NCBI RefSeq assembly: GCF_001715535.1
Contig: NZ_CP017015.1
Coordinates: 1,116,001-1,180,000 of the forward strand
Length of the DNA stretch: 64,000 nucleotides
Origin: Spiroplasma helicoides
GTDB lineage: Bacteria; Bacillota_I; Bacilli_A; Mycoplasmatales; Mycoplasmataceae
Direction: 5' to 3'
Positions 15,806 to 55,157 of this stretch are shown piece by piece. Within the stretch, counting starts at the first letter, position 1, and every line of letters begins with the position of its first letter. The translations under genes and the position numbers were made by a program. The notes beneath the pieces were generated by a model. The model saw nothing but the letters and a program-made list of their open reading frames with translations, was not told the origin of the DNA and did no database searches.

Positions 15806-15845
15806 TATATAAGTAAAATTAACCTAAGTTGGTTTACAACTTAGG
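15806..15845 (+). promoter_or_regulatory. -10 box and leader hairpin of the 15854 gene
   Basis: A TATATA box at 15806 is followed by a perfect 9-bp stem CCTAAGTTG/CAACTTAGG with loop GTTTA (15823-15845), directly joined to the Shine-Dalgarno AGGAGG. The 3' arm overlaps the first AGG, so folding could hide the ribosome site. Confidence 0.6.
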
Positions 15846-15853
15846 AGGATATA

Positions 15854-17468
15854 ATGAAGAAATTATTAAGTTTACTAGCAGCTACAGGGTTAGTTGCATC
15901 AAGTTCAAGTGTTGCGGTTGCATGTAACAAAAAAAGCTGATGATAAAGGAACAGCTACTACTACAAAAGATTTATCAACACTAGGAGCAGATGATTTAAA
16001 ATTGCAAGTATCTGATGATAAAAAAGAAACTGCAGTCACTGCTGTTATTGCTCAAATTAAAGCAAAATTAAAAGTCGATGCTAAATTAGACACTGACTTT
16101 ACAGTTGGTGATTCAGACTTTACAGCACCAAAAAGTGATGGTACAGGTAAAATTAAAGTAACTTCAAAATCTGGAAGTAAAGTATTGGTTGAAGGAAAAT
16201 CTGCTGAATTTAGTTTAACTCTAAAAGCAGCTGAATCTACAGTAAAAGATTTATCAACAATTACTGGAGATAAGTTAAATGTTATTAGTGATGATGCATC
16301 ACAAGAAAAAGCAGAAAGTGCTGTTATTGCTCAAATAAAAACTCAGTTAGGAGTTGAAGTTGCCAAAACAACTGATGTTACATTTAGTGGTTTTAAAGCA
16401 CCAAGTCAATCTCAATCAGGAACAATTACAGCAACAGCTGTGAGTACAAGCACTTTAGTTAAAGGCTCAGCAACATTTAATTTAACTTTAAAGTTTGATG
16501 AAGCCTCAACACCTCAGGATTTATCAACAATTACAGGAGATGATTTAAAATTAGATCCAGAGGGTGATACAAAAGAATATGCAGTTAAACAAGCAATTAT
16601 TTTAATTCAAAATAAATTAAAAGTTATTACTGCTTTAGATACTGACTTTACAGTTGGTGACTCAGATTTTACAGCAGCAACTAATAAAGCAGCAGGTTCA
16701 ATTAAATTAACAGCAAAAGAAGGAAGTACTAAATTAGTTGCTGGAAAATCAGTTACATTTAGTTTAGTGTATAGAAAAAATGTTGATTTAAAATTTTTTC
16801 AAGATCTTATCAACGGTGAAGGTGAAATGGGAGCAATGATGCCTACTCTTTATAAAGGTGGAGTAACAATTGATCCAACAACATCTACTAATAAAGATAA
16901 TGTAAATAATCAAGTAAAAGCCTTTATTGAAAAATTATGGCCAGTAGCAGCCTCAGAGAATATTAATTTTACATTAGATCAATTATTAAAAAATGTAAAT
17001 GCCACTTATTATGATGATGCAGCATGAACAACTGAACATTCAAGCGATAAAATTCAATCATTAAAAATTAGTGTAAAAAACAATAATGAAAGAAGTTTAG
17101 AGGGCTATTACTTACATGGTGAAATCAAAACACACATTGTTGAACAAATTGATATTACAACAGTTGTAAAAGATGAATCACAAATAGCTTTAGAGTGTAA
17201 ACAAGGTGAAGAATTACAAGCATTGCAAACATATTTAAAAGAAAAATATGCAAGCTTCTTAACAGAACATAGAACAACTGTAGATATTTTTGGATTAAAT
17301 AATTTGAATAAATCTTTAAAATATAAAGATGATGGAAGTGCAGAAGCTGGTGGTAGTGCAGAAGTAACTTTACCAAACTCTAATCCTGAAATGATTGTAA
17401 ACAGCTTATTTTCTAAAACTATAACTTTACAATTAAAAGTTACTATTAAAAGCGGTGCGACAAAATAG
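15854..17468 (+). pseudogene. Modular lipoprotein gene switched off by an A7 tract
   Basis: The signal peptide begins normally at ATG 15854 (MKKLLSLLAATGLVASS, lipobox VAC), but the Lys codons after the lipobox contain seven A (15929-15935) where intact homologs have six. The frame then runs to AGC TGA TGA TAA and stops at about 29 residues. In the shifted frame, the remaining 510 residues are fully open to TAA 17466-17468: three A-type modules, then the C-terminal NGEG domain. The body is about 80-90% similar by eye to the intact 17664-19262 gene. It could be a phase-variable OFF state, a fresh mutation or a base-calling error. Confidence 0.7.
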
Positions 17469-17512
17469 TTAATAATGGTAAATTTTAAAATATTAGTATA
17501 TAAATATTAAAA

Positions 17513-17553
17513 ACTCCTAATAAAAGAGCTTATCTATTTTATTAGGAGTTTTT
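17513..17553 (+). terminator. Terminator of the 15854 gene
   Basis: Stem ACTCCTAATAAA/TTTATTAGGAGT followed by T residues. Confidence 0.85.
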
Positions 17554-17616
17554 CTTATATGTATTACATCAAAAAAATAAAATTTATTTTACGATAATAA
17601 AAAACTTTTAAATGTT

Positions 17617-17652
17617 ATATAAGTACAATTAACATAAGTTGGTTTACAACTC
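17617..17652 (+). promoter_or_regulatory. -10 box and leader hairpin of the 17664 gene
   Basis: TATATA at 17617, then AAGTTG GTTTA CAACT, a shortened form of the 15823 hairpin (two arm positions changed), then AGGAGG. Confidence 0.5.
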
Positions 17653-17663
17653 AGGAGGATAGA

Positions 17664-19262
17664 ATGAAGAAATTATTAAGTTTATTAGCAGCTACAGGAT
17701 TAGTTGCTACGAGCGGAAGTGTTGCAGTTGCATGTAACAAAAAAACAGATGAAGCAACAGGTAAAGATTTATCAACCTTAGGAGCGGATGATTTAAAATT
17801 ACAAGTTTCAGATGCTAAAAAAGAAACTGCAGTAGCTGCGGTTGTTGTTCAAATTAAAGCAAAATTAAAAGTAGATGCTGTTCTAGATACAGACTTTACA
17901 GTTGGTGATGCTGATTTTACAGCACCAAAAAGTGATGCAGTAGGTAAAATTAAAGTTACTGCAAAATCTGGAAGTAAATTATTAAATGAGGGAAAATCAG
18001 CTGAATTTAGTTTAACTTTAAAAGCAGCTGAATCAACAGCCAAAGACTTAGCAACAATTACTGGAGATAAATTAAATGTTGTTAGTGATGATGCAACTCA
18101 AGAGAAAGCAGAAAGTGTTGTTCTTGCTCAAATAAAAACTCAATTAGGAGTTGAAGTTGCCAAAACAACTGATGTTACATTTAGTGGTTTTAAAGCACCA
18201 AGCGAATCTAAAACAGGAACAATTATAGCTACAGCCGTAAGCACAAGTAACTTAGTTAAAGGGTCAGCAACATTTACTTTAACTTTGAAATTTGATGAAG
18301 CCTCAACACCTCAAGATTTATCAACAATTACTGGAGATGATTTAAAATTAGATCCAGAGGGTGATACAAAAGAATATGCAATTAAACAAGCAGTTCTTTT
18401 AATACAAAATAAATTAAAAGTAACTGCTGTTTTAGATAAAGACTTTACAGTTGCTGATTCAGACTTTACAGCAGCCACAAAAGATACTGTGGGTTCAATC
18501 AAATTGAGTTCTAAAGAAGGAAGTACTAAATTAGTTGCTGGAAAATCAGTTACATTTTCTTTAGTATATAGAAATAATGTCGATTTAAAACTTGTTCAAG
18601 ACTTCATTAATGGTGAAGGAGATTATGCAACATTTAACCCCGCTCTTTATACAGGTGGAGTAACAGTTAGTCCAACAATAATTACTGATAAAGATGCTGT
18701 ACATAATCAAGTAAAAGCCTTTACAGGAAAACTATTAGTTATGGCTGCTTTTATTGGAATTGACTTTACATTAGATCAATTACTTGAAACAGTTGATGTA
18801 ACTTATTATGATGATGCAGCTGGAACAGTTGAACATACTAGTAATAAAATTCAATCACTAAAAATTGTTGTAAAAGATAATAATGAAAGACACTTACAAG
18901 GATTCTACTTACATGGTGAAATAAAAACAAAAATCTTTGAGCAAATTAATATTACAACAATTGTAAAAGAAGATTCTCCAATTACATTAGAATGTAAAAA
19001 AAGTGGGGAATTAGATGCATTGCAAGCATACTTAAAAAATAAATATTCAAGTTTCTTAACAGAACATAAAGCAACTGCTAACATTTTTGGATCAGATTCA
19101 TTGAATGATTCTCTTAAATATAAAGATGGGGGAAGTGCAACTGCTGGGGGAAGTGCAGAAGTAACTTTACCAAATCCAAATGGAGACTATAATCTAAATA
19201 ACTTATTTTACAAATCTGTAACTTTAAAACTAACAATTACTATTAAAAGTGCTTCAGAATAA
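17664..19262 (+). CDS. Modular surface lipoprotein (A-A-A-NGEG)
   Basis: 532 residues. Signal peptide MKKLLSLLAATGLVATSG with lipobox VAC (Cys24). Three A modules of about 85-100 residues follow, each starting with a D-L-[SA]-T segment and containing a TDxxF core (residues about 33-115, 118-210, 213-310). The C-terminal NGEG domain (about 315-532) begins NNVDLKLVQDFINGEGD and has YTGGVTVSPT and GFYLHGEIK. Intact paralog of the frameshifted 15854 gene, 200 nt downstream in tandem. Expected to be lipid-anchored on the outer membrane face and variable in sequence; no enzymatic motif seen. Confidence 0.8.
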   Translation: MKKLLSLLAATGLVATSGSVAVACNKKTDEATGKDLSTLGADDLKLQVSDAKKETAVAAVVVQIKAKLKVDAVLDTDFTVGDADFTAPKSDAVGKIKVTAKSGSKLLNEGKSAEFSLTLKAAESTAKDLATITGDKLNVVSDDATQEKAESVVLAQIKTQLGVEVAKTTDVTFSGFKAPSESKTGTIIATAVSTSNLVKGSATFTLTLKFDEASTPQDLSTITGDDLKLDPEGDTKEYAIKQAVLLIQNKLKVTAVLDKDFTVADSDFTAATKDTVGSIKLSSKEGSTKLVAGKSVTFSLVYRNNVDLKLVQDFINGEGDYATFNPALYTGGVTVSPTIITDKDAVHNQVKAFTGKLLVMAAFIGIDFTLDQLLETVDVTYYDDAAGTVEHTSNKIQSLKIVVKDNNERHLQGFYLHGEIKTKIFEQINITTIVKEDSPITLECKKSGELDALQAYLKNKYSSFLTEHKATANIFGSDSLNDSLKYKDGGSATAGGSAEVTLPNPNGDYNLNNLFYKSVTLKLTITIKSASE

Positions 19263-22383: not shown

Positions 22384-24261
22384 TTAAATTACATTAAACA
22401 ATTTATAAAAACTAAATCCAGCAACTCCCAACAATAGTGAAAAAATAATATACCCGAGAACTACAAAATTAGTATCAACTATTCTATTTGTTAGCTTAAT
22501 CTCTTTTGTAAAAATTTTATCAAAATCTTGATACATTGATTGCCTTGGAGCCACCAATATTCCATTTTGTGAAGCATCTTCATTATATGCAAGTTCTTCA
22601 TAAGCACTATTTTGTTCATAAAGATAGGCTCTTACAGGTAAAGGTTCTATATAACTATTTGTCATTGTTAATTGTTCATTTGCAAATCCCATATTTGGGT
22701 TTAAATACATTAGTAAATATTGATGAAAATAAAAAGGATTTTCAATAAAGTATTTTAAATACTTTAAATCATGACTTTTAACAGCATAATATTTAGTTTC
22801 TGTTCTTTCTTTATTAGAAGATACATACATTTTTTCCATATTATAGTTTAAATAGCGATCAATTAAGGTAAAAAAGATTGCCATATATAATCGATTACCA
22901 TCTTTTAATAGAGCTTTATTATATAAGTCTCTTTCATTAATTAAATTTAGTTTTGGTTTACCTTGTCTTCCTCATGAACCATTAACTGAATTATGTTCTC
23001 ATTTATCTGCTAAATAAAATCTACTATCAAAGTATTCTTGAGGACTACGCGATCATGTATAAATAAAATCCCTTATAATTATTTGATTTAATTGATAAAG
23101 TTCTTTTTTAATATCTCCATTACTTATATTTAAATTTAAAGTTGTTTTTATTTTTGCTATTGCTTCATCATTTAGTAATCACATAGAATAATCATTTAAT
23201 TGTGATGGTCCTTTAAGATTTTTAGCACTTCATTGATAATAAAAAGTATCTTCATAGTGATTTTTATTATCACTTGGATATAAAGTATTTATTAAAAACT
23301 GATAAATTTTATTTTTTGAATAATTTGGTGATATTTCATAACTAAAGTTTTTATTGGTTGAAACACTGTTATTTAAAAAATATGTAGAGTCAAGCATTAA
23401 TCCTGATTGAGCAACATAACTATAACCACCCATATATTTATAAAAGTTCATATCTCCCACTGTATCTGCTTGATATAAACATTCATATTCTTCATTTGAA
23501 CATGAATCATTTTGTGAGTTTTTAGCAGTTATTTTATAACTATAATCATCATTTAAACTACTAAAGTTTTTCATCAAATTATAAACAACCCCGTCTTGTT
23601 GATAACTTAATTTTTCAAGATCTAAAAGTGATTGAGTTTGTAGGTTTGGTGGTTCTCAAAGATAATTAAAATCACTTTGAGCACCACTCATATGAACTTT
23701 ACCAATTATTGGTGAACATAAGTAAAATACAAAAACTGAAGAACTCAAAAAATAAACTATTCGCGTTTTTTTAAATGAACAAAAAAATATTAGTAAACAG
23801 CTAAATACAAGATCTAGTAAAAAGAAGGTTAGATAACCAAAAAGTACAGATGAACTATAATAATCAAAGTTAATTGGATTAACTATGTAGAGTCCTAAAT
23901 ATAAAACAACCATTAAAAAAATATTTAAAGGAATAGTAATTAGTTTATTGGCAAATAATTTATAAAATAAAAGCTCACTATGACGAAACTTTTTTGCTAA
24001 CTCTAAATTTAAAATCCCATTATTACTATCTTGAACCATCGCATTAGATATAAAAACTAAGTTAACATAAAACAACAATATTATTCAAAATAGTGATGAA
24101 AAAATTAAGATCATAACAGTTTTATCAGTATTTAAGCTAGTATTTAAAATAAATAAGCTAAAGTTTGATGCAATTACTCCAATGACACTCAATAAAATAA
24201 CAAGTATAAAATACTTATTTTTAAAGTTTCTTCCTATGTTAAACAATATTACATGTTTCAT
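22384..24261 (-). CDS. ABC-2-type multi-span membrane protein, paralog 1
   Basis: 625 residues, start ATG 24261, stop TAA 22384-22386. An N-terminal block of about five hydrophobic spans (residues 15-200, e.g. LITIPLNIFLMVVLYLGLYI) is followed by a 380-residue extracytoplasmic region rich in Tyr, Asn and Ser and a last span near the C-terminus (VVLGYIIFSLLLGVAGF). The layout resembles ABC-2 permeases with a large extracellular loop. No ATPase gene is adjacent. It shares most of its length with the 27974-29845 product, from which it is separated only by the reverse transcriptase pair. Confidence 0.65.
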
Positions 24262-24352: not shown

Positions 24353-25906
24353 TTAACTAAAAAAGTTGGATATAAAATCAAAGTCATCTATTACAGTCTG
24401 TTTTGTTATTTTGATATTTTTATTTATGATAATTTTTAAGATTTCTCTAACAAAAAAACTTTGTAAATGCTTTATTTGATTAAGATTATTTATAAATTTA
24501 TAATTATTTAAAAAACCTGTTGTGTATTTAATTTTATCTTTGTAAAAAACCCTTTTATAAAAAGCCTTTTGTATTAATACTTTACATTTTTCATAACTTT
24601 TTATGTCATTTAGGTAATAATTTAGATAACTTTTTCAATACTTTAGTTTTTTAGTAAACTTACTACTATCTATTTTAATTTTTAAATTATTATCCTCAAA
24701 TATAAATTCATAACCTAAATATTTGAGTGTTTTATCATGAGATTTTTTATCTAAATTTTCAAATGTAAATTTTGTTTCTGAATTTTTTTGTTTGTTTTTC
24801 TTATTCTTTTTTTCTGAAATAGGTTCATAAATAAAAACAGTACTTTTTTTAGTGTTTAAACTTAAATTCAGTGTTTTAAATAAATTTCTAATTTTATTCA
24901 TTAGTAATTCGGAATTATTTAAGTTATTAAATATTATTAAAATATCATCAACATATCTAAAATAACCCAACATATTATAGGTTTTCATTTTAATTAATTT
25001 ATCGATTTTTTTAATTGCATACCATTCTGCAAATAAAGATGAGAAATTTATTCCTTGTGGGAGACCTATTTTTTGATTTGACTTTTGAAAAGCACCTTTT
25101 ATAAAATGCAACAAAATTTTTGTATCTTTTATGTCATACTTTCTTTTTAAAATTTTTTTTCAAGCAATATCTTTATCTAAGTCTTTTTCAATTTCTTGTC
25201 AATCAATGGCCCTTCAATCAATTGAATTGAAATAACCTTTAATATCTATCTTCATAATTGGTAACTTCATTTGTTTTTGAATTAAAATATTATTCAAAGT
25301 ACTATATAAATTATATATTATTTTATTTCTTGACTGCCTATGATTGAATAAGCTATTTTTACTAACTATTTTGAATATATAATTCGATACAATTTTATCT
25401 TTAAAACTTTGGTTGAATATTTCTCTTTTATTATTTGATCATTTCATGTATTTATAAAAACTGTAATTTTTATTCTTTATTGATTTCAGGCAATTAAATA
25501 ACAAATCTTCAAGTATCTCATATTTAAAAAAATTTTTCCTTAAATTATAATCTATAGCTTTTTTTATATTTTTTTTGAAACGCTTGTATTTTTTTGTTTT
25601 TTGATCAAATTTGCTTACCGAAGTACTCAGATTTTTAAGTTTTTTAGTAATTATGCTATTTTTTAAATCAAAATCGATCAAAATAGCTTTTATCCTATTA
25701 AAGAGCTTACTTCTAATAATTTTATTTAATCCATAACTTTCCATATAAAATGACTCAACTATGAAATACAGCTGTTTTTTACTAAAATAAACTTTTTTGT
25801 AAAAATTATCTTTTATATAAAAATTATCTTCTAGTTTTTTAAAATTTTCATCAGAAAGAATTTTTTTTATATTAAAATTATTTTTATTTCTCATATTTAA
25901 ATCCAT
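24353..25906 (-). CDS. Reverse transcriptase 2 (GLPQG type), putative antiviral
   Basis: 517 residues. RT core: motif A IMKIDIKGYFNSI with Asp221, GLPQGINFSSLFAE at 281 onward, and the catalytic box YFRYVDDILIIF with YVDD at 318-321. A Lys-rich region follows, then a thumb-like CLGYEF-type segment (KYLGYEFIFEDN near 385-396). There is no maturase, endonuclease or integrase domain, so it is not an intron or retrotransposon RT of the usual kind. The chosen start, ATG 25906, lies inside the end of the first RT gene (23-nt overlap); GTG 25918 and ATG 25894 are alternatives. Very low GC and Lys/Asn-rich. Confidence 0.8.
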
Positions 25907-27764
25907 TTCATTTTTCACAGCTTTCTATAATTTTGTTTCATAAATCATCTTCTGATAAATCATGCATAAATATATTGAAAAAATTAGTTTTTCAAAAAAA
26001 GTTGTCTTTATTTTCTACATTTTTTAGCTGAAAAATCATTTTACTTAAGTTAGAATTATTTGCATTTTTTAATTTATTGTTTAGAAAAGAAAAATAATGA
26101 GATAGTGTTGCGTAAGTTGAGTAATTTTCAGTTTTTATAAATTTTCAATCGAAGCTACTTTTTTCGGTTAAATATTTTGCTAACTCAATATTTACTTTGT
26201 TTATATATTTAGTAAATTTCATTTCAATTTCTTCTGATCAATACTCATTTTTTTTGCAAAAAAATAGTATCGTTGTAACCAAAACTCAATTATCTCAATC
26301 AAGCTCGGGATTTCACTTATTTAAGATATTTTCTACAACATCGTTTAAATCATTCTTTAGTATGACATCATTTATTAAAATTAAATTCGCTAAATCTATT
26401 GTAAAAAAATTGTTATCTAGTTTTTTAATTAAAAGGTCTAAGTATTTTTGCAAAAATTTTTTAAAATATATTTTATAACTTTTTAGTAAATCCTTTTTAT
26501 CTTGAAAAGTTACTAACAATAGTTCAATTTTTTTATAATTTACAAACTCGCAATGATTAATTAAAAACCTAATTATAAAAATTAAAGACTTGTTTAGCAT
26601 ATTTTTATTTTTTTTATCTACCTTGATTTTTTTATTTAATTTAATTTTTTTGTGGTTAGTCTCACATTTTTTTAATAAAGTCTTTGATTTTTTTCTTAAT
26701 ATAGAAAAAATATAACTAACAAAAGTTGCATCTCTCATATATATTATCTCTTTTTGTTCTTTACCCTTAATACTAAATTTTTTGATGTATTTTGAAAGTT
26801 TATTTTGAAGTTGCATACTGAATTTATACCTTTTTAATAATTTTTTTACTTTTTTTCTTATATTATAGTAATACTTCAAATCTTTAAAATTATATATACT
26901 TTTATTGGTAGTTTCTTTAAGATATAGCTTGATATTTTTTAGTTTTTTTTCATAAAATTTGCGAATATTTTCAATAGTATTTTCACTTTCAGAAAATATA
27001 TATATATCATCAACATATCTTATAACTTCATAATCCTTTTCATGTAGATTTTCTAGTTCATAATATACTGCTCAATCAATTTTTCCCATTAAACATTCTG
27101 CAAATAATCTAGAGAGCTCTGGACCTATTGGTATACCATTAGTCTCACTTCGTATTGGTAATGTGATAATTTTTTCAAAATCTTTTAAAAAATAGTGATG
27201 ACTTTGATTATTATCATATAAATATTTACCTTTTGTAAAATCATTATCAACTATTCATTGAAGTGTGTGTGAATATATTGATGGAAAAAAATTTTTTATA
27301 TCAATTTTACAAAAAAAATTATATTTTTTATTTTTATAATTATTTTCTATGATTTGTGATAATGTGGTATTTTCATAAAAAGTGAAAAATGGTGCATTTA
27401 TAGTTTCTTCATAAACATGGTCACCCTTGCCATCATCATCGACATTTTTTATAAAATTTGCTATTTGCTTATGTACTCTCAAAGAAAAACAATGATAATG
27501 GTCTAATGTAAGGGATATCGCACCCCATAATTTAAAAAAGTTTTTAAAAATTCATTTATAATAATAGCAATTTATAAAAGTTATTTCACGAATCTTACCA
27601 ATATCATAAAAATAATACTTCATATTAATGTATCCTATTGGTTTTTCAATACTTTCATCATTATATTTCATATCATAAATATTATTTAATATATAAAGAG
27701 TTTCTTGGGGTTGAATAACAAATTTCACAAATTTGTTAAAAAAGATATCATTTTTTTTGCTCAT
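25884..27764 (-). CDS. Reverse transcriptase 1 (GIPIGP type), putative antiviral
   Basis: 626 residues; eight or more TGA-coded Trp. Start ATG 27764 follows AAAGGAG at normal spacing; an upstream extension lacks such a site. RT motifs: motif A FFCKIDIKNFFPSIYSHTL with Asp155, GIPIGPELSRLFAE at 210-223, and RYVDDIYIF with YVDD at 250-253. The remaining 370 residues are helical and Lys-rich, like the alpha-helical C-terminal parts of abortive-infection RTs. The SIYSHTLQW and IGPELSR variants differ from group II intron and retron enzymes. It overlaps RT 2, so the pair is one translation unit. By architecture (two different RTs in tandem) it recalls DRT type 3; that is inference. Confidence 0.8.
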
Positions 27765-27802
27765 TTTGAACTCCTTTGTTAAAATATATTTGTTCTGCTC
27801 AG

Positions 27803-27824
27803 TTAACAATTTACTAATTGTTAA
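27803..27824. repeat. Inverted repeat in the RT leader
   Basis: Perfect 9-bp stem TTAACAATT/AATTGTTAA with loop TACT, 40-60 nt upstream of the first RT gene on its transcript. Confidence 0.7.
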
Positions 27825-27916
27825 TGATATAAAACTATCTATATTTACTGTATTTATAGATATAAACACACAGTATCCTAGCAGGCATTTATTTAGTAAT
27901 TGTAGTTTTAAAAAAA

Positions 27917-27938: not shown

Positions 27939-27975
27939 ATGAGATTATCTATTAAGATAATCTCATATTTTTTTT
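27939..27975. terminator. Strong hairpin terminator, T-run on the plus side only
   Basis: Perfect 12-bp stem ATGAGATTATCT/AGATAATCTCAT, loop ATTA, then T8 on the plus strand. The minus side lacks a T-run, although the only neighbouring coding gene (ABC-2 paralog 2) ends here on the minus strand. Confidence 0.75.
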
Positions 27976-29845
27976 AAATAACATTGACCTTTTTATAAAT
28001 AACTATACCAATTGAACCAAAAAGTAGACAAACAAAAAGATAACCAATTATAACAAAGTTTGTATTAACAACCCTGTTTGTTAATTTCATTTCTTTGGTA
28101 TAAATTTTTTCAAGATCTTGATAAAGCAAAGATCTTGGTTTATTGATATTTGTAAAATCATTATCATATTCTAATGGTTCATAGTTATTATTTTTTATAT
28201 ATCCATAAGTTCTAACAGGAAGTTCTTCAAAAGGACTATAATATAAAGCTTTTTGTTCATTTGCATAACCCATATTAGGGTTTAAATACATAAATAAATA
28301 TTGATGAAAATAGAATGGATTACTAATAAAGTATTTTGTATATTTCATACTTTTATTAGTAATATCTTGATAAATTTGTTCATATCTATATGTATTTCAT
28401 GCAAGGCTATCAGTAGTTGAGTTATAACTTAAATAACTATCAATTAAATTAAAAAATACTGCCATATATAATTTGTTACCGTTTTTTAAAATTGAGTTTT
28501 GATAAATTTGATTTTCATCAACTAATTTTAAAACTGGTTCTTTACCTTGTGATTGGATTTCATCATCTCTGTCTTTAATTCAACCATTAGAAACATACTT
28601 TTTATTATTAACATATTTTTGTTGATTGTCATATCAACTTTTAGTAAAGTCATTAATTACTATTCGATTTAAACTTTTAACTTCATTTTTAATATCACTA
28701 TCACTAATAGTTAAATTTAAGCTTGATTTGATATTTGCAATGGTACTATCTTTTATTAATCAATTTGTGTAATCATATAGTTGATCTTCTCCAGATAAGT
28801 TGGCTTTACTTGGTTTATAGTAAAATGTATCTTTAAAGTGATCTGTATTATTGCTTTGATATAAAGTATTTATTAAAAATAAGTAAACTTTTGATTTTTG
28901 ATAATTTGGTGACAAACTGTAAGTAAAGTTTGTATTAGTTGAAGGACTGTTATTTAAAAAATATAGTGAATCAAGCATTAACCCTGATTTAATAATATAG
29001 TTATAACCACCCATATATTTATAATAGTTTAAATCACTAACTCTACTTGCTTGATATAAGCAATCATACCCATTTGGTCTACAACTACTATTATTACTTT
29101 CTGGTTTAGCACTTAAAGTATATGCATAATCATTATTTAAACTACTAAAGTTTTTCATTAAGTTATAAACTATTCCCTCTTGGTTTTTAGATAATTTTTC
29201 AAGATCAATGACAGATTGAATCTCATATTCTGGAAGTGAACCAGTTTGTGAGTATTCATTTGGAGCAGCAATTTGTTGAATCTTTCCCAATAATGGAGAA
29301 AACATATAAAATACAAAAATTGCAGAACTTAAAAAGTAAACAATTCGCGTATTTTTAAATGAACAAAATAATATTAATAAAGAGCTAAATACTAAGTCTA
29401 GTACAAAAAAAGTTAATAAACCAAATAAAAGCGATGATTTAAAAAAATCATAATCTATTGGATTTATTATATATAAGCCAAGATATAGTAAAAACATTAA
29501 AAAACAATTTGTGGGAATCGTAATTATTTTATTAGCAAATAGTTTATAAAATAACAATTCAATATGGCGATATTTTTTGGATAATTCTAAGTTTAAGATT
29601 CCATTACTAGTATCTAAAATCATGGCATTAGATATAAAACAAAGATTGACATAAAAAAGTAATAAAATTCAAAAACTTATTATTCCAATATATAAACCTT
29701 GAAAAGTATTTTGTGATAAATTAGTTTCAAATGTAAATAAGTAAAAACTAATAGCAATTATTGCTAATAAGCAAATTAGATAGATAATTGAAAAATACTT
29801 ATTTTTAAAGTTTCTATTTATATTAAATAGTATGATATTTTTCAT
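27974..29845 (-). CDS. ABC-2-type multi-span membrane protein, paralog 2
   Basis: 623 residues, start ATG 29845 (MKNIILFNINRNFKNKYF), stop TAA 27974-27976. Same plan as the 22384-24261 product: N-terminal spans, a long Tyr/Asn-rich outside region with conserved stretches (YNLMKNFSSLN, DLEKLS, NPFYFHQYL, YLNPNMGYANEQ) and a final span. The two are about half identical by eye, so they are an old tandem duplication now split by the RT pair. Exporter permease is likely; substrate unknown. Confidence 0.65.
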
Positions 29846-29957: not shown

Positions 29958-31217
29958 TTATTCTACATTTGTAGCTGTTACTTTTAATGTGATTGCTTGT
30001 GCTCCATCATAACTAACTGTTACAGTAACACCTTGTTCAGTTGTAATTTTTGCTGATGCAGTTAGTGTAAATGTGTAAGATGTTGCACCATTTGTTCCGG
30101 TTACTTCTCCAACAGTTAAACTAGCCGCTCCAGCTTCTTGACCTTTTGCTGCTGTTATTTTTTTATCTGTTTTAGGGTGAGCAACATTAACTGTAATTGT
30201 TTTTGCTTCTTTATTTGCTAAATCAACTGTTGCACCACTTTGTAAACTTTCTCCAAATGTTAAAACTGGAGTTTGAGCTGCTTCTGCCGCTTGAACTGTA
30301 ACGTTAAATTTAACATCACTTGCTCCATCATATTTTAAAGTAATTTCTACTGGTCCACCAGCTTTTTTAGAAGTTAAAGTAACTTTGTAACTTCCATCGG
30401 CTTTTGTTGATGCTGCTTCAACTGCTACAGATACTGTTGTGTCATCTGCTGAAGTAGCTGTTAAAGCTTTTCCTGAAACAACATTTGTAACTGAAACTGT
30501 TAATTCTTTTTTGTTACTTGATTCACCCATTTTCATTGTTACATCTTGTTGTGCTCCAATAACTGGAGTTGTAGATGGTGTATCACCAGCTTTAAATGTT
30601 AAAACAAATGTAGCTGCTTTTTTAGCTGTAAGTAATTTACTTGAATCAGCTGCTGTTGCAACGATTTGTCCTGGATGGCTTGCATCAGTTGCTGCACTAA
30701 ATCCACTAAACACAACATCATCTGTTTCTTTTGCAGTAATTGATAATTTTGAGTTAATTTGTGCTAAAACAGCTGTTTTTGCTGCTGTTTCATCATTTGC
30801 AGTTGGTGCAACTGTTAAGTCAGCTCCTGTAATCGCTGTTGACAAGTCTAATTTTGCAAAAGCTTTTACTGTGTAAGTAACAGCAACGCTTCCTGTAAAT
30901 TTAGTTGAAGTTGATTTTGCTGTTAATGTAGCTCCTGTAACTGTTTGTGCAGGAGATTTAGCAATTTCAACATCACTTTCACCTAATCCATATGATGCAT
31001 TTGTTTTGTTTACGGCTGCCACTAATTCTTTAACTGATGGCATTGTTTCATCAACACCTAATTGGATTTCTCCTAATTCTTTTTTTGCTAATGCACTTAA
31101 ATCTTTTTTTGTAGTAGCTGTTCCTTTATCATCAGCTTTTTTGTTACATGCAACTGCAACACTTCCACTCGTAGCAACTAAACCTGTTGCTGCTAATAAA
31201 CTTAAAAGTTTTTTCAT
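29958..31217 (-). CDS. Modular surface lipoprotein (B-A-Ig-Ig)
   Basis: 419 residues; standard signal peptide and lipobox VAC (Cys24). A short Lys/Thr-rich linker, then a B module (KKELGEIQLGVDETMPS, about 42-125), an A module (DLSTAITGADLTV, 127-208) and two Ig-like D modules (about 215-310 and 313-419), each ending in a strand pattern such as YDGASDVKFNVTV. The B module is nearly the same as the first module of the 39856 gene, placed in a different module context. First of eleven genes in the tandem array. Confidence 0.8.
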   Translation of the reverse strand: MKKLLSLLAATGLVATSGSVAVACNKKADDKGTATTKKDLSALAKKELGEIQLGVDETMPSVKELVAAVNKTNASYGLGESDVEIAKSPAQTVTGATLTAKSTSTKFTGSVAVTYTVKAFAKLDLSTAITGADLTVAPTANDETAAKTAVLAQINSKLSITAKETDDVVFSGFSAATDASHPGQIVATAADSSKLLTAKKAATFVLTFKAGDTPSTTPVIGAQQDVTMKMGESSNKKELTVSVTNVVSGKALTATSADDTTVSVAVEAASTKADGSYKVTLTSKKAGGPVEITLKYDGASDVKFNVTVQAAEAAQTPVLTFGESLQSGATVDLANKEAKTITVNVAHPKTDKKITAAKGQEAGAASLTVGEVTGTNGATSYTFTLTASAKITTEQGVTVTVSYDGAQAITLKVTATNVE

Positions 31218-31237: not shown

Positions 31238-31252
31238 GTTGGATCTTCCAAC
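31238..31252 (-). promoter_or_regulatory. Leader hairpin of the 29958 gene
   Basis: GTTGGA/TCCAAC with loop AGA, 4 nt before AGGAGG. Here the -10 is less clear; a TATTATAAG lies about 20 nt further upstream. Confidence 0.55.
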
Positions 31253-32252: not shown

Positions 32253-32284
32253 GTTGGCTTTTTACTCCAACTAATAGTATTATA
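32253..32284 (-). promoter_or_regulatory. -10 box and leader hairpin of the 31339 gene
   Basis: TATAAT (32279-32284), 7 nt, then GTTGG/CCAAC with a 9-nt loop, then AATAGGAGG. Confidence 0.65.
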
Positions 32285-33345: not shown

Positions 33346-33373
33346 GTTGGATCTTCCAACTAATAGTATTATA
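33346..33373 (-). promoter_or_regulatory. -10 box and leader hairpin of the 32363 gene
   Basis: TATAAT (33368-33373), 7 nt, GTTGGA/TCCAAC hairpin with loop AGA, then AATAGGAGG. This puts the likely transcription start at the hairpin base. Confidence 0.65.
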
Positions 33374-34770: not shown

Positions 34771-34798
34771 GTTGGATCTTCCAACTAATAGTATTATA
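34771..34798 (-). promoter_or_regulatory. -10 box and leader hairpin of the 33487 gene
   Basis: TATAAT (34793-34798), 7 nt, GTTGGA/TCCAAC hairpin, AATAGGAGG. Confidence 0.65.
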
Positions 34799-34922: not shown

Positions 34923-35627
34923 TTAAGCATTTTTAGCTGTAACTTTTAATGTTACTGATTCAGCATTATCATATGATACAGTTACTGATACAAAATTTGT
35001 AAATTGTTCAGTAGCTTTTAATGTAAATGTATATGACTCTTGTCCAGCTTTACCTGTAACTTCTCCAATTACTAATTTTGTTTTATCAGTTTCTGAACCT
35101 AATGTAGCTTTTGGTGATTTTTCAGATACTGGGTTAGCAACTTTGATAGTTACAGTTGTTAATGTAGAATTATCGGCTTTAATATCAAGAGCACCCTCAC
35201 TTAAACTTTTAGCTTCTAAAGTAATAACGGGTTTTTTTGCTTCTTCAGGTTCAGCTGCTTTTTGTTTTAATACAAATGTAACTGTTCCTTTTACTAATTT
35301 ACTTGTTGAAGCGGCAGTCACTTTAATGCTTCCATCTGTTTCTTTTTCAGCTTTTTTGAATCCGTCAAAAGTTACATCAGTAGCTTTAACTACGTCAACA
35401 CCTAATTCTTTTTTGATTTGTGCAATTACAGCTTCTTCAGCTTTATCTTGAGTATCATCTTCTGGAGTAATGTTTAATTTATCTCCTGATAATGTTGATA
35501 AATCTTTGATTGTAGTTGTAGTTTCTTCAGTTTTTTTGTCATCTGCTTTTTTGTTACATGCAACAGCAACTGAACTACTTGTAGCTACTAATCCTGTAGC
35601 TGCTAATAAACTTAATAGTTTTTTCAT
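34923..35627 (-). CDS. Modular surface lipoprotein (A-Ig), shortest of the array
   Basis: 234 residues. An in-frame ATG lies 60 nt further upstream (35687), but that extension would translate across the leader hairpin and AGGAGG, so the start is the ATG at 35627, directly before the signal peptide. One A module (DLSTLSGDKLNITPEDD, about 42-125) and one Ig-like D module (PVITLEAKSLSEGALDI, 132-234). The minimal two-module architecture in the array. Confidence 0.8.
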   Translation of the reverse strand: MKKLLSLLAATGLVATSSSVAVACNKKADDKKTEETTTTIKDLSTLSGDKLNITPEDDTQDKAEEAVIAQIKKELGVDVVKATDVTFDGFKKAEKETDGSIKVTAASTSKLVKGTVTFVLKQKAAEPEEAKKPVITLEAKSLSEGALDIKADNSTLTTVTIKVANPVSEKSPKATLGSETDKTKLVIGEVTGKAGQESYTFTLKATEQFTNFVSVTVSYDNAESVTLKVTAKNA

Positions 35628-35650: not shown

Positions 35651-35684
35651 GTTGGTTTTTACCACCAACTAAAAAAATTCTATA
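35651..35684 (-). promoter_or_regulatory. Leader hairpin of the 34923 gene with a possible -10
   Basis: GTTGGT/ACCAAC hairpin with a 7-nt loop, then GCACAATAGGAGG. A TATAGA lies about 9 nt before the hairpin. Confidence 0.55.
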
Positions 35685-37497: not shown

Positions 37498-37535
37498 GTT
37501 GGTTATTTACCACCAACATAAATAATAATAACATT
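37498..37535 (-). promoter_or_regulatory. Leader hairpin of the 36544 gene
   Basis: GTTGGT/ACCAAC with an 8-nt loop. Upstream is only a TATTAT-type -10. Confidence 0.5.
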
Positions 37536-38602: not shown

Positions 38603-38622
38603 GTTGGTTATTTACCACCAAC
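38603..38622 (-). promoter_or_regulatory. Leader hairpin of the 37636 gene
   Basis: GTTGGT/ACCAAC with an 8-nt loop, GCACAATAGGAGG downstream. The -10 (GATAAA) is weak. Confidence 0.5.
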
Positions 38623-38758: not shown

Positions 38759-39697
38759 CTATTTAGTTTCAGTTACTGTTCAAGTAAGTGTTACTGAACC
38801 TTTTAATAATTTACTTCCTGAATGTGAATTAACTGGTAACTCACCATTGGTTACAGCATCCAAGTCACCTGCTTGTGCTGCTTTAAATTTACCAAAGTCA
38901 TAATCTGTACCTTCTTTTGCACCTGCAGCGAAACCTTCGATTGCTGATTTAGCTGCTTTTTTTGCTTCTTCCTCAGTGTTTTTTGCAGGATTTATACTTT
39001 TTGCTAAATCTTTTAAATCTTTAATTTCTGAGTCTGCATTGTTTACATTAACTGTAACATTTTTAGTTATTTCTCCATAAGTTAAAACTATTGTTGCTCC
39101 TTCATGAGCAGTTTTACCTGTAAATGAAACTGTGAAAATATTTTTATTATCTTGTGAAGCTTTAACTTCTGCTTTTACATCTTTTAAATAATCTTCACTT
39201 TCTTTAACATTTGCTTTTAATATTGTGCTATTATCCCCATTTTGAATAGTCACATCAAAAGTTTTTGTTTCATTTACTTTTACTGACTGAGTTTCTACAT
39301 CTGGAATTGATGGTGAAGTTGTTTCACCAGCTTCTTTAAATGTTAATGAAAAAGTAGCACTTCCAGTAATTAATGCACTTGATTCTACAGCTGTAACTTT
39401 AATTGATCCAGCTTTTTGACTTGATTCTGCTTTTGCAAAATCACTAAATGTAATATCAGTTTTTTCAACTACTGTTACATTTAATTTTGTTTTGATTTGA
39501 TCGATTACTGCTGATTTAGCTGCTGCTTCATCATTTGCATTTGGTGCCAATTTTAAATTAGCTTCTCCAATTTTTGTTAAATCTTTTTTAGCGGTTGTTG
39601 TTGCTTTGTCATCGGCTTTTTTATTACATGCAACTGCAACACTTCCACTTGTAGCAACTAGTCCTGTTGCTGCTAATAAACTTAATAGTTTTTTCAT
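38759..39697 (-). CDS. Modular surface lipoprotein (A-Ig-A')
   Basis: 312 residues; reading TGA as Trp adds the ending WTVTETK to TAG 38759-38761. A module like that of 37636, then an Ig-like C module (SIPDVETQSVKVNETKTFDV, about 130-222) and a final A' module (DLKDLAKSINPAKNTEEEA, with GAKEGTDYDFGKF). Standard signal peptide and lipobox. Confidence 0.8.
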
Positions 39698-39719: not shown

Positions 39720-39752
39720 GTTGGTTATTTACCACCAACTAGTTCTATTATA
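39720..39752 (-). promoter_or_regulatory. -10 box and leader hairpin of the 38759 gene
   Basis: TATAAT (39747-39752), 7 nt, GTTGGT/ACCAAC hairpin, GCACAATAGGAGG. Confidence 0.65.
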
Positions 39753-39855: not shown

Positions 39856-41031
39856 TTATCCTAAAGCAGGTCATGTAAATGTAACAGTACCTGTTAATTT
39901 TGTGCTTTGATCAGCTGGATCAACTTGTATTGAACCTTTTTTACCTGATTGACCCGCTGCTTGAAAATTAGTAAATTTTAAATCTTGAGCTGTATAATTT
40001 TTATTGCTAAATTTAGCATTGATTTTGGCAAGTGCAGCTGTTTGAGCAGTTCCTTCTTGGTTATCAGAGTTTTCAATTGTTTTATCTGTCACTTTGCTTA
40101 AATCATCTTTTGTAACAGTTTCTGCAGCAGTAACTTTAACTGTTACATCTTTTGTGATTTTTCCATAAGTTAGAGTTATTTTTGCTGCATCACTAGTTGC
40201 TTTACCTTTGTATGATACTGTAAATTTGTTTTTGTTAGAACCATCAACAACTGCGCTAACTTCTTCTAAAAATGCAGTGCTATCTGATTTTACATCTGCA
40301 CTCATTGATGTTTTTCCATCACCATTTTCAACTGTTACATCAAATGATTTTGTTTCTCCAATTTTAACTTCTGGTGCACTTACATCTGGAATTGATGGTG
40401 AAGTACCTGGTGCAACATAAGCTAAACTAAATGTAACTGATTTAGATTCAGTTAAAAGTTTGCTTCCTGTTTTTGCAGTTACAACCAAACTTCCTGGTTT
40501 GCTTGCTTCAGTTGCTTCTTTGTAAGTATCTGTAAAGTCTGTATCTTTAACAACATCTACTCCTAATTTTTCTTTAATTTTTGCAATTGCTGCTGTTTCA
40601 GCTGCTGCTTGTGTATTTGCTGTTGGAGTTAATTTTAAATCATTTCCTGTAATTGTTGATAAATCTTGTTTTACAAATTCTTTTACTGTATAAGTAACAG
40701 CAACACTTCCTGTAAATTTAGTTGAAGCTGCTTTTGCTTTTAAAGTTGCTCCTGTAACTGTTTGTGCAGGAGATGTAGCAATTTCAACATCACTTTCACC
40801 TAAACCGTATGATGCATTAGCTTTGTTTATAGCTGCCACCAATTCCTTAACTGATGGCATTGTTTCACCAGCACTTAATTGGATTTCTCCTAATTCTTTT
40901 TTTGCTAATGATCCTAAATCTTTTTTATCAGTAGTTGCTTTATCATCTGCTTTTTTGTTACATGCAACTGCAACACTTCCACTCGTAGCAACTAATCCTG
41001 TAGCTGCTAATAAACTTAAAAGTTTCTTCAT
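39856..41031 (-). CDS. Modular surface lipoprotein (B-A-Ig-A')
   Basis: 391 residues, ending WPALG after a TGA-coded Trp. B module (KKELGEIQLSAGETMPS, about 38-122), A module (DLSTITGNDLKLTPTANT, 125-210), Ig-like C module (SIPDVSAPEVKIGETKSFDV, 215-300) and a last A-type module (DDLSKVTDKTIENSDNQ). It shares the B module with 29958 and the Ig module with 41174, and so borders two different neighbours in sequence. Standard signal peptide and lipobox. Confidence 0.8.
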
Positions 41032-41052: not shown

Positions 41053-41079
41053 GTTGGACTTCCAACTTATATTATTATA
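41053..41079 (-). promoter_or_regulatory. -10 box and leader hairpin of the 39856 gene
   Basis: TATAAT (41074-41079), 7 nt, GTTGG/CCAAC hairpin with a 4-nt loop, AATAGGAGG. Confidence 0.65.
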
Positions 41080-41173: not shown

Positions 41174-42133
41174 TTATTGATAAGTTGCTGCACTTACATT
41201 AAATGTTAAGTTAGAAGTAGCACCTTCATACTTAACTGTGATAACTACTGCTTGTTCAATTTTCGCTTTTGCTGTTAATGTAAATGTTTGAGCAGCATCT
41301 GTTCCACCAATTTCTCCAAGAGTTAAACTTGCTTCTGCTGTACCTAAGTCAACAGTAATTTTTCTAGAAGTTACTGGATTTTCAACTTTAACTGTAAATG
41401 TTTTTGGTTGTTTATCAGATAAATCCACTGGATTTGATGGTGCTTCACTAAATGATAGTACTGGTGTTTTTGCAACTTCAGCTTCACTAACTTTAACTGT
41501 AACATTTTTTGTCACATCTTTATAAGTTAAAACAATTGTTGCTGAATCACTTTTTGATTTACCTTTGTATGATACTGTAAATTTGTTTTTATTACTGCTA
41601 TCAGTTGCAACCTTAATATCTTCTAAGAATGTTTCTCCTGATTTAACAGCTGCAGTCATAACTGATGATCCATCACCGTTTTCAACTGTTACATCAAATG
41701 ATTTTGTTTCTCCAATTTTAACTTCTTGTGCATTTACATCTGGAATTGATGGTTTAGCTGCTTCAGCTGCTTTAAATGTTAAGGCAAAAGTAGCTTTTCC
41801 TGTAACTAGTGTGCTTTTTTCAGCTGCTGTTACAACAATACTTCCTGGTTTATCACTAGATTCAGCTGCTTTAAAATCGCTAAATGCTACATCTGTTGTT
41901 TCAACAACTGTAACAGTTAATTTTGCTTTAATTTGTGAAATAACCGCTTTTTTTGCTGCTGCTTCATCATTTGCATCTGGAGCTAATTTTAAACTATCTC
42001 CTGTTATTGTTGATAAATCTTTTTTAGTAGTAGCTGTTCCTTTGTCGTCGGCTTTTTTGTTACATGCAACTGCAACACTTCCACTTGTAGCAACTAGTCC
42101 AGTTGCTGCTAATAAACTTAAAAGTTTTTTCAT
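41174..42133 (-). CDS. Modular surface lipoprotein (A-Ig-Ig)
   Basis: 319 residues; standard signal peptide. A module (DLSTITGDSLKLAPDANDE, about 38-122) almost identical to the first module of 31339, an Ig-like C module (SIPDVNAQEVKIGETKSF, 130-218) and an Ig-like D module (PVLSFSEAPSNPVDLSD, 222-319). The leader is also the same subtype as that of 31339 (loop AGTAAAAAG), so promoter, signal sequence and first module appear to move as a unit. Confidence 0.8.
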   Translation of the reverse strand: MKKLLSLLAATGLVATSGSVAVACNKKADDKGTATTKKDLSTITGDSLKLAPDANDEAAAKKAVISQIKAKLTVTVVETTDVAFSDFKAAESSDKPGSIVVTAAEKSTLVTGKATFALTFKAAEAAKPSIPDVNAQEVKIGETKSFDVTVENGDGSSVMTAAVKSGETFLEDIKVATDSSNKNKFTVSYKGKSKSDSATIVLTYKDVTKNVTVKVSEAEVAKTPVLSFSEAPSNPVDLSDKQPKTFTVKVENPVTSRKITVDLGTAEASLTLGEIGGTDAAQTFTLTAKAKIEQAVVITVKYEGATSNLTFNVSAATYQ

Positions 42134-42153: not shown

Positions 42154-42185
42154 GTTGGCTTTTTACTCCAACTTTTTATATTATA
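42154..42185 (-). promoter_or_regulatory. -10 box and leader hairpin of the 41174 gene
   Basis: TATAAT (42180-42185), 7 nt, GTTGG/CCAAC with loop AGTAAAAAG, AATAGGAGG. Confidence 0.65.
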
Positions 42186-43558: not shown

Positions 43559-43585
43559 GTTGGTTTTCCAACTAATAGTATTATA
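43559..43585 (-). promoter_or_regulatory. -10 box and leader hairpin of the 42315 gene
   Basis: TATAAT (43580-43585), 7 nt, GTTGG/CCAAC with loop AAAA, then ATAGGAGG. Confidence 0.65.
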
Positions 43586-52191: not shown

Positions 52192-52204
52192 CTTTATTTA
52201 TTAA

Positions 52205-53284: not shown

Positions 53285-53593
53285 CTTCCTTTATTTACAA
53301 CTCATAATAACATATTAAATTTATAATATCATATTTATATAATACGAGCTTTTTTGTAAAATATTTATCACTTCAGTATTCAATAACATGTTTCTTAAAT
53401 AAAAAAATTATAGGTAAATTTTTTAAATATAATTTTTCGAGTATACAAAATGTTTTTTATAAGAATGTTTAAAAATAATTTAAAACATTCTTTTTATTTT
53501 ATATTAGGTTTAAATAAACATTAGCTCATGGCCTTTATGTTTTGTCAATATTTTTTCATAATTATAAAATTTTATTTAATTAGCAGTTTATTT

Positions 53594-53900
53594 TTTTAAA
53601 TCCCTAGAGTTATTTTGTTTTAGTTTTTGCTTTCATTCTTCTTTTCACAATGGAAAGAAAGTTGTGCACATTACATTGTCTATAGAATACATGTTTAGAT
53701 AATGTAATGATTATATTATTTCTTTTGCATATCTTTTTGCAAATATAAAGATGTACTGATTTTTATTGTCAGAATGTATTATGAGCTTTTCAAATAGATT
53801 TTTTTTATGAAAGAAATAATTTTGACCATTTTTCTACATAGTTCAAAATCATTTTTAGTAATAATTTATGACTGATAATAAAACCAATGTTAGCATCTTC
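53594..53900 (-). pseudogene. Degenerate IS3-family transposase remnant
   Basis: Minus-strand translation gives LIIHSDNKNQYIF (transposase consensus HSDxGxQY) followed at the correct distance by NMYSIDNVMCTTFFPLWKEE (consensus DNAxxESFFxxLKxE), but with stop codons between and the catalytic Glu replaced by Thr. It is unrelated in detail to the two IS copies at 55679-58862. The rest of 53285-54150 shows no gene. Confidence 0.5.
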
Positions 53901-54151
53901 AACAATACTAAATAATTAACTTTTTTGTTAAAAGGTATGTAATAGATAATTATTTTTAAGAAATATGCTCATTGAAATGTTTATTTACAAGCTAATTTTT
54001 AGTATTTAAGTTTAAAATTGTTGATTGTTTTCTTTCTGAATCAACATGTAAAAACTTTTTCATTTATAATTTTATGTTTTATTTAAAATAATGTGTAATT
54101 AGAAAATTATATTTAATTTTTAAATATTACATTTTTTATTTTTAAAAATAA

Positions 54152-54191
54152 AAAAAGTTTTCTAAACTTTAAAAACTTAGAAAACTTTTAA
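54152..54191 (-). terminator. Terminator of the 54199 lipoprotein gene
   Basis: Stem AAAAGTTTTCTAA/TTAGAAAACTTTT. Confidence 0.75.
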
Positions 54192-54198
54192 AATAATA

Positions 54199-55110
54199 CT
54201 AAGATGCATCACTTGAGCTAGATGCTGCTTTTTTAGTATAAGTATATGTAACTGTAACACTTCCACTAAATTTTGATGAACTTTGTTTTGCTGTTAAAGT
54301 AGCTGATTTTGTTAGATCTGAACCACTTGGTGCAGCCATATCAACATCACCTTCTGTCAATCCTAAACCTTGATTTTTAGCATTTACTTGATCTACTACT
54401 TCTTTAACGGTTGGTTTATCGGCAGCTCCTTGTCATGCATCCAAATTTTTTGTAGTAACTGCAGTACTTAAATCTTTTTTAGATGCTGGTGCTTCTGCTT
54501 TACTATAAGTTAGTGAAACACTTCCTTGATATGTATTACCTTGACCTGTAATTTTTGCAGCTGTTGCAGAAATTGCTGGTTCAGACTCAATTTTAAAATC
54601 TTTTGTAGTTAATTTTGATGCATCAGAATTTTTAGCTTTAATTCCCGCCAACAACTCTTCAGCTGTTGGTACACTTCCTGAAAAAGTGATTGGGCCTAGT
54701 TCAGTTGTTTTAATAACTGAACTTAATTCATGTTTTTCTTCAGGTTTTTCTGCAGATGCAACATATTTTAATGTAAATGTAACTGTTCCAGTAAGTAATT
54801 TACTATCTTTTACTGCTGCAACAACTATTGATCCTGCTTTATCACTTGCAGTAGCTGCTGTAAATGTTCCAAATGTATAATCTACAGCTAATTTCGCTTT
54901 AGCTTGATAAGCTTTAAGAGCTGTTGTTGCAGCCGTTTTTGCTGATGCTTCATCGTTAGCGCTTGGTGATAAATCCTTAGCAGTTATTGATGCTAAATCC
55001 TTAGATGGGATTGATTCTGCTTCTGCTTCTTTTTTGTTACATGCAACTGCAACACTTCCGCTTGTAGCAACTAATCCAGTTGCTGCTAATAAACTTAATA
55101 GTTTTTTCAT
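54199..55110 (-). CDS. Modular surface lipoprotein (A-B-B)
   Basis: 303 residues; standard signal peptide and lipobox VAC, then KKEAEAES. A module (DLASITAKDLSPSANDEASA, about 36-120), a B subtype module (TELGPITFSGSVPTAEELL, as in 37636) and a regular B module (NLDAWQGAADKPTVKEVV, with TGA-coded Trp) ending in VTVTYTYTKKAASSS. It lies about 10 kb from the main array but has the same leader and signal sequence, so it is a detached member of the family. Confidence 0.8.
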
Positions 55111-55131
55111 ATAATATAACTTCCTCCTATT

Positions 55132-55157
55132 GTTGGTTACCCAACCCTTTAATTATA
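55132..55157 (-). promoter_or_regulatory. -10 box and leader hairpin of the 54199 gene
   Basis: TATAAT (55152-55157), 6 nt, GTTGG/CCAAC with loop GTAA, AATAGGAGG. The loop differs from all others while the stem is kept. Confidence 0.65.

Follow-up and report, generated by a model that had tools for sequence, protein, structure and literature searches.

A selected hairpin at the predicted 5′ end of lipoprotein mRNAs in Spiroplasma helicoides and its relatives: a proposed mRNA stabilizer

Fourteen lipoprotein genes in one stretch of the Spiroplasma helicoides genome carry, between the −10 box and the ribosome-binding site, an inverted repeat that would place a short stem-loop at the beginning of each mRNA. 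Sequence comparison indicates that this is a real, selected RNA hairpin of the transcripts' 5′ end, for which we propose a stabilizing role. That it is a selected RNA element, as a sequence-only reading of the stretch had suspected, is well supported: the stem stays the same where loops and spacers differ, its position appears fixed to the −10 box, and related genomes have rebuilt it in other letters. The stretch, hereafter the window, comprises 64,000 nucleotides (nt) (G000:C1:1116001-1180000) of a 1.33-Mb genome in one contig. Its GC content is 25.6%, and reading TGA as Trp yields long frames.

The proteins of the array are characterized by the signal peptide MKKLLSLLAATGLVATSGSVAVAC and the spiralin domain PF05215. 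The domain was found, together with a lipoprotein signal peptide, in all three hairpin-bearing proteins that were scanned (those of the hairpins at 33346..33360, 41053..41066, and 17637..17651), and a domain scan did not detect it in the hairpin-less protein 59068-60447. Across the genome, there are 75 matches to PF05215, and a signal-peptide search located 69 lipoprotein places; a whole lipoprotein used as a query for related loci returned no match.

An exact GTTGG..CCAAC stem lies upstream of AGGAGG in 12 minus-strand lipoprotein genes. The sequence-only reading had assigned a common stem to all 14 genes, which holds for these 12, whereas the plus-strand pair (15854 and 17664) has a related 5-bp stem, AGTTG/CAACT. 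Each of these 14 stems has a −10 box before it and AGGAGG after it. The hairpins are given below with window positions, the higher coordinate of each minus-strand gene being its start.

31238..31252, minus strand: 5′ hairpin GTTGGA-AGA-TCCAAC of lipoprotein gene 29958-31217
32253..32271, minus strand: 5′ hairpin GTTGG-AGTAAAAAG-CCAAC of lipoprotein gene 31339-32232
33346..33360, minus strand: 5′ hairpin GTTGGA-AGA-TCCAAC of lipoprotein gene 32363-33325 (PF05215 spiralin domain)
34771..34785, minus strand: 5′ hairpin GTTGGA-AGA-TCCAAC of lipoprotein gene 33487-34749
35651..35669, minus strand: 5′ hairpin GTTGGT-GGTAAAA-ACCAAC of the lipoprotein gene with its ATG at 35627
37498..37517, minus strand: 5′ hairpin GTTGGT-GGTAAATA-ACCAAC of lipoprotein gene 36544-37473
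38603..38622, minus strand: 5′ hairpin GTTGGT-GGTAAATA-ACCAAC of lipoprotein gene 37636-38580
39720..39739, minus strand: 5′ hairpin GTTGGT-GGTAAATA-ACCAAC of lipoprotein gene 38759-39697
41053..41066, minus strand: 5′ hairpin GTTGG-AAGT-CCAAC of lipoprotein gene 39856-41031 (PF05215)
42154..42172, minus strand: 5′ hairpin GTTGG-AGTAAAAAG-CCAAC of lipoprotein gene 41174-42133
43559..43572, minus strand: 5′ hairpin GTTGG-AAAA-CCAAC of the lipoprotein gene with its ATG at 43538
55132..55145, minus strand: 5′ hairpin GTTGG-GTAA-CCAAC of the detached lipoprotein gene 54199-55110
15827..15841, plus strand: 5′ hairpin AGTTG-GTTTA-CAACT of the frameshifted lipoprotein gene starting at 15854
17637..17651, plus strand: 5′ hairpin AGTTG-GTTTA-CAACT of lipoprotein gene 17664-19262 (PF05215)
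12853..12866, plus strand: similar hairpin ACCTC-AATT-GAGGT, 7 nt after TAAAAT, of a secreted non-lipoprotein open reading frame (ORF), 12881-13651; a lone match of a scan whose background is not low

Among the 12 minus-strand copies, all 10 stem columns are invariant while the loops come in seven different sequences that put 4 to 10 nt between the 5-bp arms, in agreement with the earlier impression of a kept stem and free loops. The spacer between the −10 box and the stem (seven columns) has a mean pairwise identity of 51%, and the sequences upstream of the −10 box are no more alike than shuffled ones (gapped identity of 0.56 versus 0.57); in the signal peptide, identity at third codon positions is 85%. 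A perfect TATAAT precedes eight of the 12 stems, at 7 nt in seven cases and 6 nt in one, as had been anticipated (at least eight genes, 6 to 8 nt), and the remaining boxes (TAAAAT, TAGAAT, or TATTAT) also lie 7 nt from the stem. The stem ends 2 to 7 nt before AGGAGG. Recent duplication as the sole cause of the shared stem is ruled out by the shuffled-level identity upstream, by the varying spacers and loops, and by the other stems present in relatives. An intrinsic terminator is likewise ruled out, as inspection of the sequence found no T-run after the hairpin on either strand.

The plus-strand gene at 15854-17468 is spiralin-like and disrupted by a frameshift right behind its signal peptide, and the similar intact gene at 17664 adjoins it. 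Both copies had been thought to possess an outer stem that still pairs. This is true only at 15854, where CCTA/TAGG would add 4 bp in DNA and is perfect in that frameshifted copy alone; at 17664, two of the four pairs are broken, as read from the printed sequence. In both genes, the outer arm would lie mostly upstream of the predicted +1.

Within the genome, the motif GTTGG-N2-16-CCAAC-N0-8-AGGAGG has 12 matches, all of them in the window, and the reversed pattern has none. For comparisons that do not depend on particular letters, we defined a hairpin as a box TA...T with at least five of six matches to TATAAT, followed after 4 to 9 nt by a perfect stem of at least 5 bp with at least two G/C and a loop of 3 to 10 nt, at most 65 nt from the ATG. 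By this definition, 14 of the 69 lipoprotein genes of the genome have a hairpin, 13 in the window set and one among the other 55, and so the hairpin marks a subset of them. It is absent from the window's lipoprotein genes at 4174, 15556, 21963, 45783, 47221, 60447, and 62200. Hairpins in other letters occupy the equivalent place at L066 (ATTGTTG/CAACAAT), at L064 (TGTTGA/TCAACA; this gene has a stop in its signal peptide), and, less clearly and as read by eye, at L050 (the weaker TGTTA/TAACA).

The 12 copies of the window are not independent, and paralogues within the relatives share stems too; genome counts are therefore given below beside gene counts. Covariation within the GTTGG set alone is uninformative (one double-change pair; 30 of 500 shuffles equally high), and for this reason, the structural evidence is drawn from other stems and from leaders of the RNase Y gene (rny). 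We examined 104 of 108 lipoprotein starts from 19 other genomes of the genus, taken from part of the matches (seven further listed ones and those beyond the listing lie outside this set; L167, L209, L220, and L221 were excluded because no signal peptide could be read where one was expected), together with 184 control genes with ATG and a Shine-Dalgarno (SD) sequence, picked by a simple script from 20-kb stretches of the same genus after removal of 23 lipoprotein-like genes. Hairpins precede 18 of the 104 lipoprotein genes and one of the 184 controls (Fisher's exact test, P = 5e−8), and dinucleotide shuffles of the 104 upstream regions gave a mean of 0.3 and a maximum of 1 in 40 shuffles. The 18 hairpins are spread over six of the 19 genomes (G006, G007, G008, G011, G012, and G016), where 0.55 genomes would be expected at the control rate. 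If 4-bp stems are allowed, the counts rise to 29 of 104, from 10 of the 19 genomes, versus two of 184 controls. In a second genus (G077, G078, and G030), 7 of 26 genes have the hairpin (P = 1.5e−6 against the same controls; L373, L379, L390, and L393 of 30 loci were dropped, as no signal peptide was readable). Single further cases outside these counts occur in G013 and G005, and the spiralin-like genes of genus g8 are mostly without a hairpin among the loci inspected.

The stems of the relatives differ in sequence. Besides GTTGG/CCAAC, they include TGTTGA/TCAACA, ATGGCT/AGCCAT, ACGGT/ACCGT, GATGA/TCATC, GGCATA/TATGCC, GCATA/TATGC, AGTCTA/TAGACT, CCATT/AATGG, and GTCTT/AAGAC, and those of the second genus are mostly of the type GGTAA.. 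(e.g., GGTAAT/ATTACC), 7 nt past TATAAT. The relatives thus appear to rebuild the stem in other letters, conserving structure over sequence. Unrelated stems in the same place, at frequencies far above shuffles and controls, are what one expects of a stabilizer in which pairing, rather than a particular sequence, matters.

Plotted against the distance from the −10 box, stem starts in lipoprotein genes form one sharp peak at 6 to 9 nt, and the profile of the controls is flat (4-bp stems at offsets 6 to 9 account for 52 of 70 counts in the relatives versus 3 of 23 in the controls). A chance origin of the hairpin is ruled out by this profile, the shuffles, and the control genes. In a set of 33 hairpins, 18 begin 7 nt past the box, seven 6 nt past it, and three 8 nt past it (6 to 8 nt in 28 of 33), whereas the stem stands anywhere between 9 and 27 nt from the ATG, and in the second genus between 13 and 48 nt from it. 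Bacterial RNA polymerase initiates about 7 nt past the −10 hexamer, and the stem is therefore expected to begin at +1 or +2. The seventh base after the −10 box is a purine in 28 of the 33 hairpins versus 31 of 42 controls, which adds little. All transcription starts in this analysis are predicted ones, and on that basis, the quantity held fixed is the distance to the transcription start and not to the ribosome site, which argues for an element of the RNA 5′ end and against a ribosome gate or a DNA operator.

From these starts, the predicted leaders are 35 to 45 nt long in the 12 minus-strand genes and 27 nt in the plus-strand pair. The 12 predicted RNAs have one unpaired 5′ nucleotide and then a hairpin of −4.9 to −8.1 kcal/mol; the stem does not include their AGGAGG, which is mostly open (mean unpaired probability of 0.49 to 0.95). 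In the frameshifted copy at 15854, the start codon is predicted to be buried (0.06).

The hairpin is not restricted to lipoprotein genes, as had been thought possible, since the mRNA of RNase Y carries one too. A genome search for TATAAT-N3-9-GTTG-N3-14-CAAC matched the array and the leader of rny, whose identity was read from the protein (L286, G000:C1:296978-297034, outside the window). Among 40 genomes, rny was found in 29, of which 20 belong to the genus (the other leaders are L287 to L305), and 18 of these 20 have a leader hairpin, with its foot 6 nt after the −10 box and mostly of the form GTTGN..NCAAC; L287 and L288 do not. In 16 aligned leaders (L293, L295, and L300, with longer hairpins, and L304, identical to L303, were omitted from the 20), 97.4% of cells pair, and three of the five pairs show double changes (U-A to C-G, G-C to A-U or U-A, and C-G to A-U). 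The covariation score is 0.302 versus 0.127 when shuffled, a value reached in none of 500 shuffles, and slid versions score at most 0.130. In most of these leaders, which are about 40 to 50 nt long in the genus, the SD sequence lies within a second predicted hairpin or overlaps with it, and the rny leader is possibly autoregulatory. The core GTTG/CAAC is common to rny and lipoprotein leaders of G000, G006, G012, G016, and G005. The hairpins of lipoprotein and RNase Y mRNAs point to a shared protection or regulation of these messages.

In our analysis, the best-fitting mechanism is a stabilizer like that of ompA. We propose, with middling confidence, that the hairpin is a sequence-flexible 5′-terminal stabilizer beside a strong ribosome site, akin to the leaders of aprE and ompA, that keeps lipoprotein mRNAs long-lived. 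Each gene would have its own promoter, and the first transcribed base would be the one at the hairpin foot or its upstream neighbor, so that the mRNA would begin with a 5- to 6-bp stem-loop, followed by a strong, open SD sequence and the codons of the signal peptide. The hairpin would deny a single-stranded 5′ end to 5′-end-dependent decay (by RNase J as an exonuclease or by 5′-sensing RNase Y), a ribosome on AGGAGG would shield the rest of the short leader, and mRNAs of surface lipoproteins would last long as a result. The genome encodes RNase J1 and J2 (two RNase J proteins above the cutoff) as well as RNase Y. For Bacillus subtilis, a review (PMC3997798) reports that long stretches of mRNA are stabilized by a hairpin or a ribosome site at or near the 5′ end, that RppH needs two or more unpaired nucleotides at this end, and that the same end is where RNase J1 attacks.

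Several observations weigh against a stabilizer. The weakest step of the proposed mechanism is the one that involves decay enzymes, as protection would have to operate without a Nudix decapping enzyme: no Nudix protein was found in the genome at an E value of 0.001, and all 14 control genomes gave a match. The decapping step of the Bacillus and Escherichia coli pathways would hence be missing or be carried out by another enzyme, and any protection would be directed against a non-Nudix agent (RNase J itself, 5′-sensing RNase Y, or another enzyme). RNase J might already be held off by a triphosphate end. Moreover, the stems, besides being short, are no more than moderately stable, most of the genome's lipoprotein genes do without them, and the hairpin-less genes at 21963, 60447, and 62200 have a signal peptide nearly identical to that of the hairpin genes. 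Finally, a purely sequence-free stabilizer does not need the core GTTG/CAAC to recur in several species and in rny.

This recurrent core would be explained if a trans-acting RNA-binding factor, perhaps RNase Y or a partner of it, bound the hairpin and thereby co-regulated RNase Y and lipoproteins. The covarying hairpin at the predicted +1 of rny in 18 of 20 genomes fits such a factor, as does the cleavage by B. subtilis RNase Y of its own leader (PMC10303841). However, the core of rny is missing from the lipoprotein stems of G008, G011, G007, and the second genus, and loops vary freely in length and sequence; we consider this reading rather unlikely. Less likely still is a regulon in which RNase Y and surface-lipoprotein mRNAs share the start-anchored hairpin and a single membrane decay circuit sets the levels of both; if it existed, the circuit would belong to a cell without a wall and without the usual enzyme for decapping, in which RNase Y is the main initiator of decay. 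The fixed 6 to 8 nt from the −10 box, whatever the distance to the ATG, would also suit a role in initiation, with a stem in the first transcribed bases aiding start-site choice or promoter escape or preventing backtracking. Such a role would be expected in highly expressed genes generally, yet only one of the 184 controls has the hairpin, and we deem it unlikely.

A gate over the ribosome site, which the sequence-only reading had also offered, is suggested by the 2 to 7 nt between stem and AGGAGG in the 12 window genes, but it is quite unlikely: in none of these genes is the SD sequence paired inside the hairpin, as it is in RNA thermometers and riboswitch-type gates, and in the second genus, the hairpin ends 41 to 48 nt before the ATG in five of eight cases. 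Palindromes at +1 are typical of operators, and the phosphotransferase system-like genes L274 (G006) and L275 (G016) carry a loop-less palindrome, TTGGAAACGTTTCCAA, just after the −10 box, which we take to resemble a catabolite or LacI-type operator. A DNA operator for a dimeric repressor at +1 of the lipoprotein genes is nonetheless very unlikely, with neither a fixed half-site spacing nor a conserved sequence: within a single genome, the gap between half-sites can be anything between 4 and 10 bp, a difference of roughly half a helical turn, and the stems of relatives are unrelated. We consider equally improbable that leader and signal peptide serve antigen variation, as a site of recombination or a block of gene conversion, in the manner of vpma or vsp of mycoplasmas. 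The identity among the 12 copies does stop approximately at the −10 box, and the vpma genes too have a conserved 5′ untranslated region (UTR) and signal peptide, with the recombination site in the UTR (PMC2268961). Here, by contrast, a −10 box stands ahead of every copy in place of one promoter with silent copies, the array genes all have the same orientation, the sole tyrosine recombinase found is a frame of 165 amino acids about 650 kb away, and the stem is rebuilt in other letters in relatives.

The leader of B. subtilis aprE, in which a 5′ stem-loop and the ribosome-binding site act as an mRNA stabilizer, is similar to the lipoprotein leaders in that it is short, belongs to a gene whose product is exported, and has a 5′-terminal stem-loop (predicted here) and then a strong SD sequence. 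The lipoprotein hairpins differ from it in belonging to a whole gene family, in having stems that vary between and within species, and in the lack of a detectable Nudix pyrophosphohydrolase. With E. coli ompA and papA, they share a hairpin at the extreme 5′ end (again predicted here) with almost no unpaired nucleotide, which is thought to hide the end from 5′-dependent decay; in E. coli, this decay proceeds via RppH and RNase E (PMC3997798), whereas RNase J and RNase Y are at hand in S. helicoides. The rny leaders recall the autoregulated 5′ UTR of E. coli rne and the leader of B. subtilis rny in holding hairpins, one 5′-terminal and one around the SD sequence. They differ in that the 5′ hairpin resembles those of lipoprotein genes, in the absence of an Rfam match at the gathering threshold for the four loci searched (three rny leaders and one array leader of the window), and in their length, the B. 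subtilis leader having 164 nt (PMC10303841). As in the vpma, vsp, and vsa systems of mycoplasmas, lipoprotein paralogues stand in tandem with a conserved 5′ UTR and signal peptide, but no single promoter is shared and no recombinase lies beside the array. We found no report of these hairpins in literature on the question or on mollicute mechanisms, within a coverage that takes in few subscription papers.

Hairpins that act as 5′-terminal stabilizers were previously known from single genes; if our proposal holds, they extend here across a gene family and two genera, and the rebuilt stems provide natural compensatory evidence for structure. The organisms in which this start-anchored hairpin occurs have very few regulators and, it appears, lack a Nudix enzyme for decapping. 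The hairpin suggests a link between RNase Y and the expression of surface proteins that can be tested, and it may serve as a portable leader for mollicute expression tools.

A loose scan of 544 kb of the genome with a TATAAT-like box gave 20 matches, of which 14 are at lipoprotein genes (one gene counted twice) and six elsewhere: rny, a ribosomal S6-like ORF, the ORF at 12881, and three of coding or doubtful appearance. With four scrambled boxes, the matches numbered 7 to 16, and so the total alone (20 versus up to 16) is weak evidence and lone matches outside the lipoprotein family and rny are not trustworthy; apart from these two groups, the scan contains nothing above background. The S6-like ORF has an 8-bp hairpin 8 nt after TATAAT (L315, G000:C1:20001-40000, at about 3154, plus strand), which may correspond to a known ribosomal-protein leader or to chance. 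A covariance model was also run against 20 genomes; it scored 150 candidates in each, out of thousands, and is thus not exhaustive. Among the 27 loci inspected, L273, L279, L270, L261, L262, L258, L260, and L268 are coding regions or free of hairpins, L274 and L275 are the operator-like palindromes mentioned above, and L271 is the rny of G003.

The window also contains several other genes of note. Near the lipoprotein array, two neighboring reverse transcriptases (24353-27869, minus strand) have Drt3a and Drt3b as their best matches (PADLOC), suggesting a DRT3-like defense system in a mollicute; retroposition or a diversity-generating retroelement (DGR) driven by these enzymes had been considered as an origin of the hairpins, and what the enzymes match are these defense models. 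On either side of this pair lie two related, big, membrane-like ORFs (22384-24261 and 27974-29845, minus strand), as if duplicated; the former, which was the one scanned, has no Pfam match. A subtilase and an AAA ATPase (5648-8874, minus strand) match IetS and IetA, an Iet-like defense pair, and the ORF 10379-11857 encodes a KAP-family ATPase. Two transposase-like ORFs (55728-56771 and 57431-58798, minus strand), one of which repeats the C-terminal part of the other nearly exactly, represent two copies of one insertion sequence, one of them shortened.

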